From: an uncultured Gemmiger sp.
Lineage (GTDB): Bacteria > Bacillota > Clostridia > Oscillospirales > Ruminococcaceae
Length of the DNA: 49,680 bases
Reading direction: 5' to 3'
NCBI GenBank assembly: GCA_949295035.1
Contig: CASFJO010000013.1
Location: forward strand, 1 to 49,680
The number at the start of each line of letters is the position of its first letter. The first letter of the stretch is position 1. The notes beneath the pieces are model-generated. The model was not told where the DNA came from. It worked only from the letters and a program-made list of their open reading frames with translations, and searched no databases. Of this stretch, positions 14,287-49,680 are shown piece after piece. The translations under genes were made by a program, and so were the position numbers.

Positions 14287-14317
14287 CCGCCCCGATCGCG
14301 GTCCGCTTATAGCGGGA

Positions 14318-14776
14318 TCAGCCGTTCTTGGCCGCCTGGCGCAGGTTGCTGCGCACGCTCTTCACGTCGGCGGCACTGCGGGCCAGCTGCTCCTCACTGG
14401 CGCGGAGCATATTGTCGCAGTATTCCGTGACGGTTTGACGCATCTCCCGTGCCTGGCTCTGCGCGGTGGAAACGATCTCCGCCGCCCGCTGCTGGGCCGC
14501 GCGCACGACCTCCTGCTCGCCCACCAGGATACGGGCCCGTTCTTCGGCTTTCTTGATGATGGCCTCGCTCTCCCGCTTGGCGCTGGCGATGATCTCGCCC
14601 CGGTCCTGCACGATGGCCTTGGCCTGGCGGATCTCATTGGGCAGATTCAGCCGCACCTCGTCGATCAGGTCCCGCACCTTCTCCACGTCCACAGCCCGCT
14701 TGCCTCCGCTGAAGGGCAGGCCCGCCCCCTCTTCCAGGGTCTCCTCCATCATATCCAGCAGTTCGTCGATATTCAT
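14318..14776 (-). CDS. Coiled-coil protein (DivIVA / V-ATPase-H-like), unknown role
   Basis: A 152-residue soluble protein dominated by a long charged helix (about residues 45-150) rich in E, R, A and Q, with the segment ESEAIIKKAEERARILVGEQ. The N-terminus starts MNIDELLDMMEETLEEG and is followed by a proline/glycine break. Proteins of this kind beside rsmD in Clostridia are often annotated as ATPase or V-type ATPase subunit H, only because of the coiled coil. DivIVA-like septal or pole-binding proteins look similar. The start overlaps the rsmD stop (ATGA), so the two genes are coupled. Function is not assigned. Confidence 0.8.
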   Translation of the reverse strand: MNIDELLDMMEETLEEGAGLPFSGGKRAVDVEKVRDLIDEVRLNLPNEIRQAKAIVQDRGEIIASAKRESEAIIKKAEERARILVGEQEVVRAAQQRAAEIVSTAQSQAREMRQTVTEYCDNMLRASEEQLARSAADVKSVRSNLRQAAKNG

Positions 14777-15324
14777 AGGTCTGCACTCCTTTTCTGATAG
14801 CGGGTCACCAGCACGGTGCCGTATCGGTATTGTTTGATCTTTTCCAGGCCGGAAGCCTCATCCGGAAGGTCGGCAGCCAGTTCACTCTCACAGAGCACCG
14901 TGCCGCCAGGCTCAATGCGAGCCGCCAGCAGCGGCAGGATATCCGCCAGCGTGCCGTGCCGGTAGGGCGGGTCCAGCAGGGCCAGGTGAAATGTGTCCCC
15001 TGTACGGGCCAGGAAACTCTCCGCCTCGCTCCAGACCACCTGGGCATGGTCCTCCACACCGGCGGCCCGGCAGTTGCGTTTGACCACCTCGACAGCCGGG
15101 CGGCTGCGGTCCACAAAAACGCAGCGGGCCGCGCCCCGGCTGAGCGCCTCGATCCCCAGCTGCCCGCTTCCCGCGAACAGATCCAGCACCCGCGCCCCGG
15201 GAAGCAGAAACTGCAGCGCGCTGAACATTCCCTCTTTGACCCGGTCGATGGTGGGCCGGGTCACATCCTCGCCGGGCAGGGTCTCGAGACGGGTACCCCG
15301 GGCGGAGCCGGAAATCACGCGCAT
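14773..15324 (-). CDS. rsmD: 16S rRNA (guanine966-N2)-methyltransferase RsmD
   Basis: A 183-residue class I methyltransferase. The opening MRVISGSARGTRLETLPG, the TRPTIDRVKEGMFSAL segment, the SAM loop VLDLFAGSGQLGIEALSRGA (about residues 45-64) and the catalytic LLDPPYRHG (N/D-P-P-Y) motif (about 117-125) are the defining features of RsmD. It methylates G966 of 16S rRNA during 30S assembly. AAGGAGG precedes ATG 15324, four bases after the uvrC stop. It overlaps the next gene by four bases. In many Firmicutes rsmD is followed by coaD; that gene is not here. Confidence 0.95.
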   Translation of the reverse strand: MRVISGSARGTRLETLPGEDVTRPTIDRVKEGMFSALQFLLPGARVLDLFAGSGQLGIEALSRGAARCVFVDRSRPAVEVVKRNCRAAGVEDHAQVVWSEAESFLARTGDTFHLALLDPPYRHGTLADILPLLAARIEPGGTVLCESELAADLPDEASGLEKIKQYRYGTVLVTRYQKRSADL

Positions 15325-15327
15325 GGT

Positions 15328-17226
15328 TCATACCTCCTTAGCCCCTCCGTTCGGGGGGCATGTTTCATTATGGGGGCTGGCGGACGGCTTGTCAAGAGCC
15401 GCTTCAGGGTGAAAATGGGCAAAAATCGCCCGGGCCGTGACCGGGCCCACACCCGGCGTGCCGCACAACTGCTCCACCGTCGCCTCCCTCACCGCGGCCA
15501 CCGTGCGAAACTGTGCCAGCAGCGCTCTGGCAGCCGCCGGGCCCACACCCGGCACCTCGGTAAGGCGGGAAGAATAGGATTTTTTCTTTTGAGCCTGACG
15601 CTGGTAGGAAATGGCAAACCGATGCACCTCGTCCTGGATGGATGTGATAAAGGTAAAGATGCCCCGGTGCAGGCTCACGGCGATCTCCTCGCCGCCGGGC
15701 GCCACGATAGCCCGGGTGCGGTGGCGGTCGTCCTTGACCATGCCGAACAGCGGTACGTCCGCCAGTTTGGTGCCGGCCAGCACCGCTTGCACCGCGCTGA
15801 CCTGGCCCCGGCCGCCGTCCAGCAGGATCAGATCCGGCTTTTGGGCGAAGGAACCGGCGGCATCCGGCTTTTCGTATTCGGCGGCCCGGCGGCTCAGGGT
15901 CTCGGCCATGCTGGCATAGTCATCGGTCCCCAAAACGGTGCGCATCCTGAAACGCCGGTAATCGCTCTTTTTGGGGCGGCCTTCCTCAAACACCACCATA
16001 CCGCAAACGCTGGTGCCCTCCCCCCAGTTGGAGATGTCGTAGCTTTCGATCCGGTGGGGCGGCGCGGACAGACCCAGCACCTGGGCGGTCTCGTCCAGCA
16101 GGCGCTCCTGTTTGCCGTAGCGGCCGCTCTCCCGGGCCAGGCGCTCCACCGCGTTGGTATAGGCCATGGTGACCAGCTTGGCCATATCCCCCTTCTGGGG
16201 CACATACAGCCGCACCTTGGCCCCCCGGGTCTGCTCCAGCAGTTGATGCAGGGGTTCGGCGTCCTCCGGCAGGGCGTCCACCGCGATGGTACGGGGGATC
16301 TCTTCCCCGTCCAGATAGTAGCGGGGCAGAAACTCCTCCCTCACCCCGTCCGCGTCGGCGGTGTCGTGGAACACAAACTCCCGCTTGTCCGCCAGGCGGC
16401 CCCGGCGGTACCGCAGCACCGCGGCGCAGACCGCCCGGGTAGTGGCGGCCAGGGCGATCACATCCATCTGGGTGCACTCATCCACCACTACCTTCTGCCC
16501 TTCGCTGACCTTGCGGATGGCGGCCAGCTGATCCCGGATCAGGGCGGCCTGCTCAAAGTCCAGCCGTTCGGCGGCGGCGTTCATCTTTTCCTCCAGGGTC
16601 TTGATGATCTCCTTTTTGCCGTAGCGGATCATGCGCACCGCCCCGGCCACCGCCTCGTTATAGGTCTCCCGGCTGATTTTTCCGCTGCACAGCCCCATAC
16701 ACTTGCCGATGTGGGCGTTCAGGCAGGGGCGGCCTTTTCCGATATCCTCAGGGAAGCGGCGGCCGCAGCGGGGCAGCTGAAAGCAATCCTGGGCGGTCTG
16801 GACCATCTCCCGCACCGCAAAGCTGGAGGTGAACGGGCCGATATAGTCGGCACCGTCCTCCTCTTTTTGCAGCACGGCGGACAGCCGCGGATACGCCTCC
16901 CGTGTGACCCGCACATAGCTGTACCCCTTGTCATCTTTGAGCAGGATGTTGTATTTGGGGGTGTGGGCCTTGATCTGACTGGCCTCCAGCACCAACGCCT
17001 CAAACTCGCTTTGGCAGACGATCACGTCAAACTCGAAGGCGTTTTCGATCATGCGGGTGACCTTCGCGTCATGGGGCACCCCTTCGCGAAAATACTGGCT
17101 CACCCGGGTGCGCAGGCGTTTGGCTTTGCCGATATAGATGATGACGCCCTCTTTGTCCCGAATGATATACACACCGGGAAGCAGGGGCAGCATACAGGCT
17201 TTTTGGTACAGCTGGGCTTTGGTCAT
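15328..17226 (-). CDS. uvrC: Excinuclease ABC subunit C
   Basis: A 632-residue nucleotide excision repair nuclease that makes both incisions around damage with UvrB. In order: a GIY-YIG domain (PGVYIIRDKEGVIIYIGKAK, about 17-36), a UVR motif for UvrB contact (EKMNAAAERLDFEQAALIRD), the RNase H-like 5'-incision domain with ESYDISNWGE and LLDGGRGQVSAV, and a C-terminal helix-hairpin-helix pair (EVPGVGPAAARALL and GTPGVGPVTARAIF). The start at 17226 is chosen over a longer frame because AAAGGAG lies upstream and MTKAQLYQKA fits the family. It overlaps nothing and is followed at once by rsmD. Confidence 0.96.
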   Translation of the reverse strand: MTKAQLYQKACMLPLLPGVYIIRDKEGVIIYIGKAKRLRTRVSQYFREGVPHDAKVTRMIENAFEFDVIVCQSEFEALVLEASQIKAHTPKYNILLKDDKGYSYVRVTREAYPRLSAVLQKEEDGADYIGPFTSSFAVREMVQTAQDCFQLPRCGRRFPEDIGKGRPCLNAHIGKCMGLCSGKISRETYNEAVAGAVRMIRYGKKEIIKTLEEKMNAAAERLDFEQAALIRDQLAAIRKVSEGQKVVVDECTQMDVIALAATTRAVCAAVLRYRRGRLADKREFVFHDTADADGVREEFLPRYYLDGEEIPRTIAVDALPEDAEPLHQLLEQTRGAKVRLYVPQKGDMAKLVTMAYTNAVERLARESGRYGKQERLLDETAQVLGLSAPPHRIESYDISNWGEGTSVCGMVVFEEGRPKKSDYRRFRMRTVLGTDDYASMAETLSRRAAEYEKPDAAGSFAQKPDLILLDGGRGQVSAVQAVLAGTKLADVPLFGMVKDDRHRTRAIVAPGGEEIAVSLHRGIFTFITSIQDEVHRFAISYQRQAQKKKSYSSRLTEVPGVGPAAARALLAQFRTVAAVREATVEQLCGTPGVGPVTARAIFAHFHPEAALDKPSASPHNETCPPNGGAKEV

Positions 17227-45137: not shown

Positions 45138-47216
45138 TCAAACATAAAAGAGCATGTCGCTGTAGGTAGGCAGCGGCCACAGAGAGCGGTCGACCGTCTG
45201 CTCCAGCTTGTCGGCCGGGGTGCGCACCGCGGCCATGGCGGGCAGCACCTTGTCGGCGCAATACTGCGCCAGGCCGGTCACGTCCTGCGGCATAGCCTCC
45301 ACGCAGGCGTACAGCGCGTCCGCCGCGGCAAGCATCTCGCCGGTGAGGCTGCTCACCTGGCTGGTGAGCGCGGTCTCGGCGGGCGCTTCGATGCCCAGGG
45401 CCTTCTTGGCGCTCACGCCGGCGGCCAGGCTGTTGGAATATTTGATGCAGGCCGGGGCGATCTGCTGACGGATCAGATCCAGCAGGGTCAGCGCCTCGAT
45501 GCGGATGGCCTTGCCGTACTCGTCCAGCAGGATCTCCTCTCGGGAGGCGATCTCCTCGCGGGTGTAGATGCCGTGGCGGGCAAACAGCGCCACATTCTTT
45601 TCATCGGTGTAGTGTACCAGGGCCTCGGGGGTGGTGCGGAAGTTGCACAGACCCCGGCGCTCGGCCTCCACCGGCCATTCCTCGCCGTAACCGTTGCCGT
45701 TGAACAGGACCCGCTCGTGGGCCGCCAGTTCCCGGCGGATCAGGGTCAGCAGATCCTTCTGGAAGTCGGCGCTTGCCTCCAGTTCGTCGGCGTACTGGCC
45801 CAGCGCGTCGGCCACCGCGGTGTTGAGCATCACGTTGGTGCAGGCGATGTTGAAGGAAGAGCCCGGCATCCGGAACTCAAATTTGTTGCCGGTAAAGGCG
45901 AAGGGGCTGGTGCGGTTGCGGTCGGATGTATCCCGGGGCAGATTGGGCAGTACCACGGCGCCGGTGTCCAGCACGGTGGGCGCGTTGCTCTGGCAGGGGC
46001 CGGTGCCCTTGATCAGGCAGTCGATCACCGCCTGCAGTTCGTCGCCCACATACACCGAAATGATGGCCGGAGGCGCCTCGTTGGCGCCCAGACGGTGGTC
46101 GTTGCCGGCGCTGGCCACGCTGATGCGCAGCAGGTCCTGGTACTCATCCACCGCCTTGATCACTGCGGTCAGGAACAGCAGGAACTGGGTATTCTCCGCA
46201 GGGGTGGAGCCGGGGTCCAGCAGGTTCTCGCCCTTGTCGGTGCTGATGCTCCAGTTGTTGTGCTTGCCGCTTCCGTTGACCCCCTCGAAGGGTTTTTCGT
46301 GCAGCAGGCAGGCAAAACCATGCCGATCAGCCACCTTCTTCATGACCTCCATGGTCAGCTGGTTGGCGTCAGTGGCAATGTTGGCGGTGGCAAAAATGGG
46401 AGCCATCTCATGCTGGCAGGGGGCCACCTCGTTGTGTTCGGTCTTGGCCAGGATGCCCAGCTTCCACAGCTCGGCGTCCAGATCCTCCATGAAGGCTTTG
46501 ACCCGCGGCCGCAGCGAACCGAAGTAGTGATCCTCCAGTTCCTGGCCCTTGGGGGCGGGAGCGCCCACCAGGGTGCGGCCGGTGAGGATCAGGTCGGGGC
46601 GGCAGGCATAGTCCTGCTTGTTGATGAGGAAGTACTCCTGTTCCGGCCCGATGGTGGCGGTGACCCGGCAAACTTTTTTGCCGAACAGGCCCAACACCCG
46701 CACCGCCTGACGGCTCAGCGCCTCCATGCTGCGCAGAAGCGGGGTCTTTTTGTCCAGCACCTGGCCGGTGTAACTGCAGAAAGCGGTGGGGATGCAGAGG
46801 GTGTCATCCTTGATAAAGGCGTAGCTGGTGGGATCCCAGGCGGTGTAGCCCCGGGCCTCGAAGGTAGCCCGCAGACCGCCGGAGGGGAAGCTGGACGCGT
46901 CCGGTTCCCCTTTCACCAGTTCCTTGCCGGAAAAGTCCATAATAACGCCGCCATCCCCGCAGGGGCTGATAAAGCTGTCGTGTTTCTCGGCGGTGACGCC
47001 GGTCATGGGCTGGAACCAGTGGGTGAAATGGGTAGCCCCCTTGCTCACAGCCCAGTCCTTCATGCAGGTAGCCACCACGTTGGCCACATCCAAATCCAGC
47101 GGAGCCCCCCGCTGGATGGTGTTCTTCAGGGAGCGGTATACATCTTTGGGCAGGTGCGCCCGCATCACCTTGTCATTGAATACCATACTGCCAAACAGTT
47201 CCGGTACGTTCTGCAT
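45138..47216 (-). CDS. glnN: Glutamine synthetase type III
   Basis: A 692-residue GlnN-type enzyme that makes glutamine from glutamate, ammonia and ATP. Type III is identified by its size (about 690-730) and by motifs such as [34 protein letters not shown] and [12 protein letters not shown]; the glutamate/ATP site and the metal-binding glutamates are present. The C-terminal arm (about 600-692) is the type III helical extension. AAAGGAG precedes ATG 47216, 36 bp after asnA, so they are probably co-transcribed. No regulator is adjacent. Confidence 0.96.
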
Positions 47217-47252: not shown

Positions 47253-48251
47253 TTACAGCAGCTGGATACCCTCTTGCGCGCAGGCACGGATCATATCCTC
47301 CGGCCACAGACTTACCTGCACCTCGCCGATATGAGCCTTGCCCAGAAGCAGCATGCACAGCCGGCTCTGGCCGATGCCGCCGCCCATGGTCAGGGGCAGG
47401 GTGCCGTCCAGCACGCCCTTGTGGAAGGGCAGCGCCAGGCGCTCGGGGCAACCGGCGGCTTCACACTGGATGCGCATACGGTCGGCGTCCACCCGGATAC
47501 CCATGCTGGACACCTCAAACGCGTGGCCCAGGGTGCTGTTCCAGAACAGGATATCGCCGTTCATGGTCCAGTCATCGTAGTCGGGGGCGCGACCGTCATG
47601 CTTTCCGCCGCTCTTGAGCGGGCCGCCGATCTGCATCACAAAGGCGGTAGGATGATCCTTCAGCCAGGCATCCTCCCGCTCCTTCGGGGTCAGGCCGGGC
47701 CAGCGATCCTCCAGTTCCTGGGTGGTGACAAAGCTGACCTCGCGGGACAGTTCCACCGTAAGGGCGGGGTATTCCTTTTTCACCGCGTCCAGAGTGTCGC
47801 AGACGGCCGCCACGATCTGGCGCACCGTCTCCTTCAGATACTCGACGGTACGGGTCTCCCGGGTGATGACCTTCTCCCAGTCCCACTGGTCCACATAGAC
47901 CGAATGCAGGGCGTCCAGCTCTTCATCCCGGCGGATGGCGTTCATATCGGTGTACAGGCCGGTACCGGCGGCAAAACCGTAGCGGCCCAGAGCCATGCGT
48001 TTCCATTTGGCCAGGCTGTGCACCACCTGGGCGGCGGGCAGCGAGGGAATGGCCGGAATGTCGAAGGACACCGGACGTTCCACGCCGTTCAGATCGTCGT
48101 TCAGGCCGGTGGAAGGATCCACGAACAGGGGCGCGGTGACCCGGGAAAGGGACAGCCGCTCAGACAGGTTCTGCTGGAAGGTCTGCTTGACAAAGCCAAT
48201 AGCTTTCTGGGTATCATACAGGCTCAAAACGGATGTGTACGCTTTTTTCAT
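47253..48251 (-). CDS. asnA: Aspartate-ammonia ligase AsnA
   Basis: A 332-residue AsnA that makes asparagine from aspartate, ammonia and ATP using free ammonium (not glutamine). The opening YDTQKAIGFVKQTFQQNLS, ASN-synthetase core VDQWDWEKVI, KSGGKHDGRAPDYDDW and the late TMGGGIGQSRLCMLLL (class II synthetase-like motif 3) are clear. AAGGAGG precedes ATG 48251. It follows hisH by 13 bp and precedes glnN, so ammonia-using genes are grouped. Confidence 0.97.
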   Translation of the reverse strand: MKKAYTSVLSLYDTQKAIGFVKQTFQQNLSERLSLSRVTAPLFVDPSTGLNDDLNGVERPVSFDIPAIPSLPAAQVVHSLAKWKRMALGRYGFAAGTGLYTDMNAIRRDEELDALHSVYVDQWDWEKVITRETRTVEYLKETVRQIVAAVCDTLDAVKKEYPALTVELSREVSFVTTQELEDRWPGLTPKEREDAWLKDHPTAFVMQIGGPLKSGGKHDGRAPDYDDWTMNGDILFWNSTLGHAFEVSSMGIRVDADRMRIQCEAAGCPERLALPFHKGVLDGTLPLTMGGGIGQSRLCMLLLGKAHIGEVQVSLWPEDMIRACAQEGIQLL

Positions 48252-48264
48252 AGGTCATTCCTCC

Positions 48265-48927
48265 TTATTCCAAAGCCGGGGTCCCTGCCAGGCTAACAAA
48301 CGCCCGCAGGATACTCAGCCCGGTTTCTGCGCTTTTTTCCGGGTGAAACTGCACACCGGTCACGTTGCCGCGGCGTACCGCCGCGCAAACACGGCGGCCG
48401 CCGTACAGGGTATCGGCCAGCCGGTCCGTCTCGCAGGCGGGCACGGCGGCAAAGCTGTGTACAAAGTAGACCTCCTCCCCCGGCCGGATATCGGCCAGAA
48501 GCGAGCCGGCAAAGCCGGACGGTACGGCGGGGATCAGGCCGCTCCACCCCACGTGGGGCACCCGCAGAGGATTTCCCTCCGCGTCCTGGCGGGGCAGCGG
48601 CTCCACCGTGCCGGGGATCAGGCCCAGGCCGGGGGTCACGCCGTCCTCGCAGCCGGTATCGAAGAGCATCTGCATCCCGAGGCAGATGCCCAGCAGCGGC
48701 ACGCCGGCGGTGGCCTTTTCCCGGATGGGGCCCTCCAGGCCGTCGGCCCGAAGGCGAGCCATGCCGTCCGCGAAGGAACCTACGCCCGGAAGCACCAGCG
48801 CGGCAGCTTTTCGGATGCTGTCGGGGCCGGCGGCAAAGACCGCTTCCGCGCCGCAGAACTCCAGTGCCCGGCGCACGCTGAGCAGATTGCCCCGGCCATA
48901 GTCGATGATGGTCACGACCGGCCGCAT
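48265..48927 (-). CDS. HisH-like glutamine amidotransferase
   Basis: A 220-residue class I glutaminase that makes ammonia for its cyclase partner. The active triad is complete: cysteine in GICLGMQML, and histidine and glutamate in GVQFHPEKS. The opening VVTIIDYGRGNLLSVRRAL is typical of HisH. The start at 48927 follows GGAGGTGAG and overlaps the 3' end of the HisF2-like gene by 16 bp, so the two are coupled. With an apparently HisF2-type partner and no other his genes nearby, it may serve a non-histidine amidation rather than IGP synthesis; this is inferred. Confidence 0.88.
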   Translation of the reverse strand: MRPVVTIIDYGRGNLLSVRRALEFCGAEAVFAAGPDSIRKAAALVLPGVGSFADGMARLRADGLEGPIREKATAGVPLLGICLGMQMLFDTGCEDGVTPGLGLIPGTVEPLPRQDAEGNPLRVPHVGWSGLIPAVPSGFAGSLLADIRPGEEVYFVHSFAAVPACETDRLADTLYGGRRVCAAVRRGNVTGVQFHPEKSAETGLSILRAFVSLAGTPALE

Positions 48928-49680
48928 AGTCTCACCTCCACGCCTTTTTGGGCCAGCTGATTTTTCAGGGCGGGGATATCGGTGTTGTCGTAATGCAGGA
49001 TGCTGCCCACGGCCACCGCCTGAGCGTCCCCCTCCACCGCCAGGAACAGATCCTCGGCCGAGGAGGCGCCGCCGGCGGCGATCACCGGCACCGGGACCAC
49101 CGCGGACACCGCCGCGATCAGTTCCTGGTCCATACCTTTGCGAAAACCTTCTCGATCCACGCTGGTGAGCAGGATCTCCCCCGCTCCCTGGGCCACGCCT
49201 TCCTTCACCCACTCCAGCACATCCCGGCCGGAGTGTTCCCGGCCGTTGTCAAAATAGGCTTCCCATCCGGCAGCCGGGTCGGCGGGATCCCGCCGCTTGG
49301 CCTGTACGCTCAGCACCATGCACTGGCTGCCGAAAGCTCGGGCCACCTCTCCGATCAGTTCCGGACGGCGCAGGGCGGCGGTATTGACGGCGGCTTTGTC
49401 CGCTCCCGCCCGCAGGATGGCGGCCACGTCCTCCACGCTGCGCAGCCCGCCGCCCGCTGTGATCGGGATGAATACATCGGCGGTGGCCCGGCGAAGGATG
49501 TCGCCCAGGTTGTTCCGCTCATACAGGCTGGCCACCGTGTCCAGGTAGAGCAGCTCATCCACCCCCTGGCGGTAGTACCGCACCGCAAATTCGTGGGGAT
49601 CTCCCAGCTTGCGAAGGCCCTCATACTGGATGCCCTTTACCAGATTTTCGTCCTTCACATCCAGCCGGGCGATCAGGCGG
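48912..49680 (-). CDS. HisF2/AglZ-type cyclase subunit homolog, 5' end off window
   Basis: A TIM-barrel HisF homolog of at least 256 residues; the first few codons lie beyond the right edge. The frame at the edge reads RLIARLDVKDENLVKGIQ, where genuine HisF has CLDVKDGRVVKG. Blocks such as DELLYLDTVASLYERNNL, ITAGGGLRSVEDVA and DNGREHSGRDVLEW match the HisF2/AglZ group tied to acetamidino sugar modification in surface glycans. In histidine-type HisF a second catalytic aspartate lies in A-I-D-A-K-R; here the segment reads LSVQAKRRD, with glutamine in its place, while the first aspartate (RLDVKD) is kept. A histidine role is therefore unlikely. A GTG at 49658 is internal to the family N-terminus and not the real start. 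Confidence 0.85.
   Translation of the reverse strand, partial: RLIARLDVKDENLVKGIQYEGLRKLGDPHEFAVRYYRQGVDELLYLDTVASLYERNNLGDILRRATADVFIPITAGGGLRSVEDVAAILRAGADKAAVNTAALRRPELIGEVARAFGSQCMVLSVQAKRRDPADPAAGWEAYFDNGREHSGRDVLEWVKEGVAQGAGEILLTSVDREGFRKGMDQELIAAVSAVVPVPVIAAGGASSAEDLFLAVEGDAQAVAVGSILHYDNTDIPALKNQLAQKGVEVRLCGRS

Follow-up and report, generated by a model that had tools for sequence, protein, structure and literature searches.

Introduction

HisH2 and HisF2 are the partners of P. aeruginosa WbpG. WbpG, like WbuX, has a role in amidino sugars, and the L. pneumophila N-acetyl sugar amidotransferase (NASAT) 8WEX has a PP-loop and a zinc tetracysteine, whose two cysteine pairs flank a disordered stretch that, according to the excerpted text of that report, is missing in other members (PMC10607449). 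PtmG is described as converting CMP-Leg5Ac7Ac to CMP-Leg5Am7Ac, and a ptmG homologue, ORF 28, was given this role (PMC3766260, in excerpt); 8WEX presumably corresponds to ORF 28.

On the regulatory side, an ANTAR target has been defined as a dual hairpin, and the reported targets include P-II, ammonium transporter, and glutamate and glutamine synthesis genes (PMC3369931, in excerpt); therefore an ANTAR nitrogen regulon as such is already known. In the dual motif, the second hexaloop hairpin lies 2-25 nt away (PMC8164766, in excerpt). EutV-type targets have two hexaloops, and induction was abolished when the first was deleted (PMC3369931, in excerpt). EutV contacts a single hexaloop, and the minimal motif has been revised to one, with both still needed in eut (PMC8934654, in excerpt).

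Here we describe a NASAT-HisF-HisH set encoded among nitrogen genes in an uncultured Gemmiger sp. The window, i.e., the whole stretch of 49,680 bases that was analyzed, comprises bases 1-49680 of contig C13 (124,398 bases) in a genome of 2.64 Mb (97 contigs, 91.8% complete). The closest named relatives of the NASAT adjoining the window are those of an uncultured Gemmiger (98% identity) and Gemmiger sp. An120 (97%).

Gene organization

The genes of interest at and beyond the right edge of the window are as follows.

45138..47216 (-), glnN, type III glutamine synthetase (PF12437 270.1 bits, PF18318 137.3 bits), final gene of the predicted operon
47253..48251 (-), asnA, aspartate-ammonia ligase (TIGR00669 350.5 bits, cut-off 292.8)
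48265..48927 (-), HisH-like glutaminase with intact triad (TIGR01855 187.8 bits, cut-off 105.4; triad columns)
48912..49680 (-), HisF-like (beta/alpha)8 barrel with D11 kept and D130 replaced by Q, a predicted non-cyclase, cut by the window edge
C13:49688-51055, same strand as hisF, NASAT of 455 aa (TIGR03573), with a 4-base overlap with hisF
C13:51188-51763, same strand, upstream of NASAT, ANTAR-domain regulator (ANTAR profile match)

The first ATG of the HisF-like gene lies 11 bases beyond the window edge (C13:49691), giving a product of 259 aa. On the common strand, asnA begins 13 bases downstream of hisH, and glnN 36 bases further on. Upstream of the ANTAR gene is glnA on the same strand, followed by a divergent dapL and then pyrG. 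The order is therefore glnA, ANTAR regulator, NASAT, hisF, hisH, asnA, and glnN, and we predict that NASAT-hisF-hisH-asnA-glnN forms one transcript. A separate his cluster on contig C79 has its own hisH, hisA, and hisF (the remaining his genes there were named by reading translations).

A preliminary description of the window had recognized the HisF- and HisH-like reading frames, whose positions were borne out by an ORF check, and had suggested looking for a separate his operon elsewhere, which the C79 cluster provides. It had also expected an N-acetyl sugar amidotransferase of the PseA/WbpG type or surface-glycan genes past the right edge. The former is indeed present, with NASAT scoring 349.7 bits against TIGR03573 (cut-off 203.2). 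The latter are not: the neighbors are the ANTAR regulator, glnA, dapL, and pyrG, with asnA and glnN downstream. Neither of the two outcomes named as contradicting it, a his operon directly beyond the edge with this as its only hisF, or Asp in the 130 column, appeared.

A HisF-like barrel lacking Asp130

When aligned with HisF and HisF2 sets, as the preliminary description had proposed, the HisF-like protein retains the first catalytic Asp, Asp11 (ARLDVKD), and has Gln in the Asp130 column (LSVQAKR), where the HisF of the same genome reads LSIDARR and the solved HisF chains shown in the alignment have Asp. It therefore lacks one of the two catalytic Asp expected of HisF, and both residue assignments made earlier hold. 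Its earlier assignment to HisF2/AglZ, from signature blocks, does not: the protein scores 173.8 bits against NF038364 (AglZ/HisF2; cut-off 310) and falls in a different clade of the tree, so membership in that group was rejected. The best-scoring named family is HisF (TIGR00735), yet the 260.2 bits are below the cut-off of 294.55. Against TIGR03572 (WbuZ) it scores 246.2 bits, below the cut-off of 299.7, which a Rhizobium member of the same clade passes (301.4 bits); as expected of a WbuZ, it is encoded with NASAT and HisH. TIGR03572 was discarded as a WbuZ probe in the phylum, as only 3 of 299 genomes exceeded its cut-off and all three matches align as ordinary D/D HisF; therefore NF038364 was used to find references.

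Among 143 distinct sequences aligned (identical rows merged, and rows below 110 bits treated as HisA), the NASAT-linked clade has D/Q in columns 11/130 in 51 sequences, D/E in 25, E/Q in three, and D/D in one, i.e., Gln or Glu at 130 in 79/80 distinct sequences. The AglZ/HisF2 group instead has Leu at 11 and Asp at 130 (19/19), and canonical HisF has D/D in 32/32 rows after removal of those treated as HisA. In a 99-row tree, for which near-identical rows were thinned, three groups are resolved, namely the clade together with L223 (100/100), the AglZ group (99/98), and HisF (95/81), with weaker support (98/73) for joining the NASAT-linked clade to the AglZ group. The sole D/D clade member, L223:10001-10777, lies on an Azospirillum lipoferum plasmid, and its 21-kb stretch lacks an annotated NASAT. 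The NASAT-linked HisF thus appears to be a new, third, and separate clade that lost Asp130, a mirror image of AglZ/HisF2 losing Asp11. Its members can exceed the HisF cut-off and be misnamed, as for the relative L128 (302.4 bits against TIGR00735), which poses an annotation risk.

Columns R5, E46, K99, and E167 are what we take to be the ammonia gate of HisF. Together with K19 and D98, they are invariant in 79/79 clade rows, and D130 is lost in 79/79, with L223 set aside by hand; column 176 is Glu in 77/79. HisF D98 and K19 have been treated in HisH activation (PMC8115485, in excerpt). The simplest reading of these columns is that the barrel may still conduct ammonia and engage HisH while no longer cyclizing. 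The HisH-like protein itself, above the TIGR01855 cut-off, shows the complete Cys-His-Glu triad, none of whose columns varies in 92 aligned HisH-like sequences, a set still including overlapping loci and any canonical HisH; the complete triad noted earlier is confirmed in aligned columns.

Three further observations concern other HisF-like sequences. Column 98 is Glu in 16/19 AglZ/HisF2 rows (loci L225, L132, and L228-L244), and D98E has been reported to speed up glutamine turnover by HisH in imidazole glycerol phosphate synthase (PMC8115485, in excerpt); by analogy, Glu98 in AglZ/HisF2 perhaps makes a naturally switched-on conduit. One Burkholderiales contig (L132:9318-10082 and 14292-15518) has both NASAT-linked HisF types, with Glu130 and Leu11 respectively. 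The Synergistaceae HisF (L117 and L118) nest within the Oscillospiraceae clade, and a search upstream of their NASAT revealed no leader, perhaps reflecting transfer of the set without its control.

The NASAT partner and the legionaminic acid pathway

NASAT carries the PP-loop SGGxDS and CxxC...[GN]xCxxC motifs, and amidination of an N-acetyl sugar is its predicted function. It aligns over 427 residues to 8WEX (656 bits), sharing the tetracysteine and PP-loop, with no alignment gap in the stretch between the cysteine pairs. Relatives of this long NASAT (80-100% identity) are present in 23/197 genomes of the family, and the clade HisF (at least 61% identity; next match 46%) occurs in the same 23. 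A second, short NASAT type is also found in all 23, and without the long type in 15/174 other family genomes (plus one weak fragment); therefore the long NASAT goes with the clade HisF, and the short can occur without it. NeuB scores at least 310 bits in all 23 long-NASAT genomes, vs. 15/174 of the others.

In the source genome, LegB, LegC, NeuB, and NeuC are all over cut-off on contig C51, i.e., another contig than that of the NASAT set, and a second, shorter NASAT is on contig C14. No leader of the type described below was detected at the legionaminic genes by a pattern scan or by a covariance-model scan that scored 150 of 4374 first-look candidates. The Rhizobium sp. WL3 genes for LegB, LegC, NeuC, NeuB, an acetyltransferase, a nucleotidyltransferase, a cytidylyltransferase, and NASAT form a run closed by a clade HisF (60% identity), the order ending in NASAT-WbuZ-HisH. 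By analogy with PtmG, the NASAT described here may likewise convert CMP-Leg5Ac7Ac to CMP-Leg5Am7Ac. Given NASAT and the separate his cluster, the earlier proposal of an ammonia-delivery unit for something other than histidine is the best reading of the HisF-HisH pair.

Many loci of the G. formicilis group have a short NASAT within ~8 kb. The second, short NASAT of the source genome (L012:9713-10834 (-)) has no adjoining HisF, and on a Peptococcaceae contig (L133:6819-9308) short and long NASAT are in tandem before HisF-HisH; two amidotransferases may share one ammonia supplier. At the AglZ-type loci (L228-L244, n=17), the best match of the nearby NASAT is the L225 one in 13/17 and the short type, at ~30%, in 2/17, and none shows in the 1.5-kb flanks in 2/17; the L225-type NASAT is taken to be a third, WbpG-like class.

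The neighborhood in relatives

Conservation of the gene order was assessed in 80 named loci, the best of 286 stretches encoding NASAT relatives, among which close strains remain. HisF follows NASAT in 74/80; four of the six exceptions are at a contig end and two belong to a genus in which the genes are unlinked. NASAT is directly after the ANTAR gene in 22/80, and asnA-glnN follows in 7/80 (row count). The NASAT-HisF-HisH trio is also present at 18 distant loci (proteobacterial, Geobacter-group, Nitrospira, Cohnella, Peptococcaceae, Eubacteriaceae, and Synergistaceae), with no reference nitrogen genes within the stretches examined there.

A hexaloop leader upstream of NASAT

The 132-base gap between the ANTAR and NASAT genes folds at -56.4 kcal/mol (z -5.1). 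It contains a terminator consisting of a long GC-rich hairpin followed by TTTTCTTTTT, which was missed by a simple terminator scan and found by folding. The 5' arm of the terminator can alternatively pair with the bases just upstream to form CAGGC-AAAGGC-GCCTG, with a six-base loop bearing A1 and G4. An A1/G4 hexaloop overlapping an intrinsic terminator, the arrangement sought in an ANTAR-target RNA, is thus present in the NASAT leader. Known Rfam families were searched in this stretch (L006) and rejected, nothing coming near a gathering score.

Four such leaders are found in a 20-kb stretch of the source genome, at dapL, pyrG, glnA, and NASAT. Once repeated contigs at five loci were discounted, a pattern of loop, stem, and terminator gave 107 matches in 1,212,944 bases of 82 loci, located at NASAT (41), glnA (18), pyrG (14), glnN (10), dapL (6), and asnA (1), and 17/107 without a reference gene. 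With L088, L113, L121, and L130 left out for short upstream sequence, a terminator with an AANG loop motif precedes NASAT in 17/24 ANTAR-adjacent loci, 28/37 other Oscillospiraceae loci, and 0/17 distant loci; counts for the terminator plus all four antiterminator pairs are 15/24, 23/37, and 0/17 respectively. As the leader is absent before NASAT in 17/17 distant loci, nitrogen control would therefore be a trait of the Oscillospiraceae family only.

Among leaders picked without requiring the antiterminator stem, 38/45 can form it, compared with a mean of 13.1/45 (sd 2.6) and a highest value of 24 in 5000 re-deals, and with 2.6% around any AANG. In 49 leaders, the antiterminator had a covariation score of 0.754, vs. 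0.278 on shuffling, and the terminator one of 0.710, vs. 0.254, and slid structures scored at most 0.153 and 0.165 respectively; these 49 were chosen by a motif demanding pairing, the unbiased pairing figure being 38/45. The closing pair of the hexaloop is C-G in 105/107 pattern matches, although the pattern required only A1, A2, and G4. A dual-hexaloop reading was considered and rejected: a second hexaloop, sought on the upstream side only within 25 nt, occurs in 9/106 leaders, vs. a shuffled rate of 8.2%. A strong -10 hexamer lies no more than 30 bases upstream of the stem in 75/107 leaders, 4-16 bases away in 72 of them, as opposed to 2.6% at random places. The NASAT leader of the source genome has no -10 box just upstream and may be read through from glnA-ANTAR.

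Genes preceded by the leader

With 150 of 4374 first-look candidates scored, a covariance model matched the source genome at seven places (E<=0.1). Five of them, at E<1e-3, precede NASAT, pyrG, gltB, glnA, and a gene for an ammonium transporter-P-II fusion (amtB-PII). Two weaker places, one opposite the NASAT leader on the other strand (E 0.019) and one on C70 (E 0.09), have no nitrogen-gene explanation, and the dapL leader was found by pattern only and missed by the model. An ammonium transporter of 547 aa fused to a P-II domain, with a leader upstream, is encoded at L260:2544-4187 (-).

Across the family, 100/197 genomes have a match at E<=0.001, with 26 candidates scored for almost all of the genomes listed; because scoring in the genome searches covered a fraction of the first-look candidates, absences are weak. 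The gene behind the leader was read for 18 of 30 returned loci, the other 12 coming from long-NASAT genomes, and is glnN in seven, asnA in three, HisF in two, and gdh, amt, glnA, gltB, pyrG, or a solute-binding protein in one each (two names, at L270 and L277, by tblastn). The two HisF leaders come from the two genomes of genus g110, where NASAT and HisF-HisH are encoded apart; the model has a match before NASAT in each genome as well. On visual inspection, a promoter-like box, a hexaloop, and a terminator can be made out in both HisF leaders and in the NASAT leader displayed. Separate leaders for the unlinked HisF-HisH and NASAT are the strongest evidence suggesting that the set itself is kept under leader control.

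The ANTAR regulator

The source genome has a single ANTAR match, in the gene beside glnA (48.9 bits, cut-off 27.3), and the protein encoded between glnA and NASAT is thus the likely reader of the hexaloop. Of the 197 family genomes, 95 have both leader and ANTAR, five the leader only, 49 ANTAR only, and 48 neither (Fisher p 3e-13, with kinship ignored). Among the matches listed in genomes without long NASAT, at least 49/98 leaders are within 10 kb of an ANTAR gene. At position 54 (L006:11508-12083 (-)), the phospho-acceptor column set by alignment to 1s8n, the protein and its relatives have Asn (37/39) or His (2/39) instead of Asp, therefore phosphorylation is unlikely to be the regulator's signal.

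Proposed mechanism and alternatives

In the mechanism that we infer from gene order, protein families, residue losses, the leader with its covariation, the leader-bearing genes, and the co-occurrence with ANTAR, HisH would hydrolyze glutamine and the ammonia would pass through the HisF-like barrel, in which the second catalytic Asp is gone and the gate and HisH-activating residues are kept. The PP-loop ATPase NASAT, encoded just upstream, would use it to convert an N-acetyl group to N-acetimidoyl (amidino) on a nucleotide-activated nonulosonic acid destined for a surface glycan, with CMP-legionaminic acid the likeliest substrate. The leader would fold either as the hexaloop hairpin (antiterminator) or as the intrinsic terminator ahead of the NASAT-HisF-HisH-asnA-glnN run, and the ANTAR protein would read the hexaloop of the leaders before NASAT, glnA, gltB, amtB-PII, pyrG, and dapL, both its binding and the direction of control being presumed. 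Because the leader is common to the NASAT set and nitrogen genes, surface amidination would be tied to nitrogen state. We consider it probable that this locus serves to amidinate a legionaminic-type sugar with ammonia from glutamine, and that ANTAR places it under nitrogen control via natural single-hexaloop targets. A broader hypothesis, which we regard as evenly balanced between right and wrong, is that the Oscillospiraceae have a nitrogen regulon built on natural single-hexaloop ANTAR targets, mostly at the transcript start, which includes the amidine step of a legionaminic-type glycan but leaves out its sugar backbone, and through which nitrogen state would switch between N-acetyl and positively charged N-acetimidoyl surface sugars, with the third HisF clade lacking Asp130 as the conduit.

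The leader could instead be a genuine nitrogen attenuator read by a factor other than ANTAR, such as another RNA-binding protein or an RNA structure coupled to translation or glutamine. We think this unlikely: the single hexaloop, the five leader-bearing genomes without an ANTAR match, and the missing phospho-acceptor Asp in the regulator's receiver-like half would agree with it, but the C-G closing pair in 105/107 hexaloops was not asked for by the pattern, at least 49/98 listed leaders are within 10 kb of an ANTAR gene, and a lone hexaloop has been reported to be the smallest motif that ANTAR binds (PMC8934654, in excerpt). Somewhat harder to sustain is the view that an ordinary WbuX/WbuZ/HisH surface-sugar set landed in a glutamine synthetase operon, the terminator ending the glnA-ANTAR transcript and the shared element being coincidental or passively inherited. 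Such three-gene sets do exist in other phyla without the leader, and NASAT directly follows ANTAR, where a terminator is expected, in 22/80 named loci; however, terminator plus four pairs are kept away from ANTAR (23/37, vs. 15/24 ANTAR-adjacent), the leader is found ahead of NASAT and of HisF where the two are separated, and five other nitrogen-gene units in the source genome have it as well.

Two alternatives concern the product rather than the control. A nitrogen-regulated set making something other than a surface sugar, e.g., an amidine metabolite for nitrogen storage or signaling, would suit the high conservation of NASAT across the genera of the family (80-90% identity to that of the source genome) and its place among nitrogen genes, but is decidedly unlikely in our view, given NeuB at 310 bits or more in all 23 long-NASAT genomes of the family sample, the short NASAT within ~8 kb in many G. 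formicilis-group loci, and the L. pneumophila relative and Rhizobium operon, which point to legionaminic acid. That the pair is a second histidine-pathway HisF-HisH with a tolerated substitution is hardly credible: although no named family scores higher than HisF (TIGR00735, 260.2 bits), this score is below 294.55, a separate his cluster exists, column 130 is lost nearly clade-wide, and the HisF-like gene goes with NASAT, so a histidine function was rejected on cluster, scores, and residue columns. We therefore retain nitrogen-controlled amidination of a legionaminic-type sugar as the preferred explanation.

Comparison with known systems

The NASAT-HisF-HisH trio is of a known kind: P. aeruginosa WbpG/HisH2/HisF2 and E. 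coli O145 WbuX/Y/Z likewise combine NASAT, glutaminase, and a HisF-like barrel for amidino sugars. The new parts are the HisF clade and the coupling to a nitrogen leader; a literature search of titles and abstract openings, with subscription papers mostly outside it, found nothing joining sugar amidination with nitrogen regulation. The locus would link surface-sugar amidination to a second field, the control of nitrogen metabolism by RNA antitermination. About a hundred natural single-hexaloop leaders are also at hand for testing if one hexaloop suffices for ANTAR antitermination, a question raised previously (PMC8934654, in excerpt), and two NASAT-linked HisF clades with complementary Asp losses and the tested gate columns kept make the step from cyclase to conduit testable.

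Compared with individual systems, the Gemmiger NASAT, whose closest known counterparts are L. pneumophila 8WEX and C. jejuni PtmG, resembles 8WEX in the tetracysteine, PP-loop, and inter-cysteine stretch (PMC10607449, in excerpt), whereas the L. pneumophila gene is in an LPS locus and the Gemmiger gene among nitrogen genes. The AglZ/HisF2 group has Leu11 with Asp130 kept, in contrast to Asp11 and Gln130 in Gemmiger, and the nearby NASAT at its loci is of the L225 class in 13/17, unlike the long NASAT of Gemmiger. The wbuZ of Rhizobium sp. WL3 (NZ_CP042825.1) belongs to the same HisF clade (60% identity, Glu at 130) and shares the NASAT-HisF-HisH order; unlike in Gemmiger, this set is embedded in a legionaminic acid operon, with no nitrogen genes annotated in the 21-kb stretch. 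Similar to the ANTAR regulons of EutV and of D. acetoxidans nitrogen genes (PMC3369931, in excerpt), the putative Gemmiger regulon combines an A1/G4 hexaloop overlapping a terminator with nitrogen genes. The leaders collected across the loci differ from the EutV type in having one hexaloop rather than two and in mostly lying just after a -10 box, and, unlike the ANTAR regulons in the excerpted text of PMC3369931, the putative regulon includes a sugar amidotransferase set.
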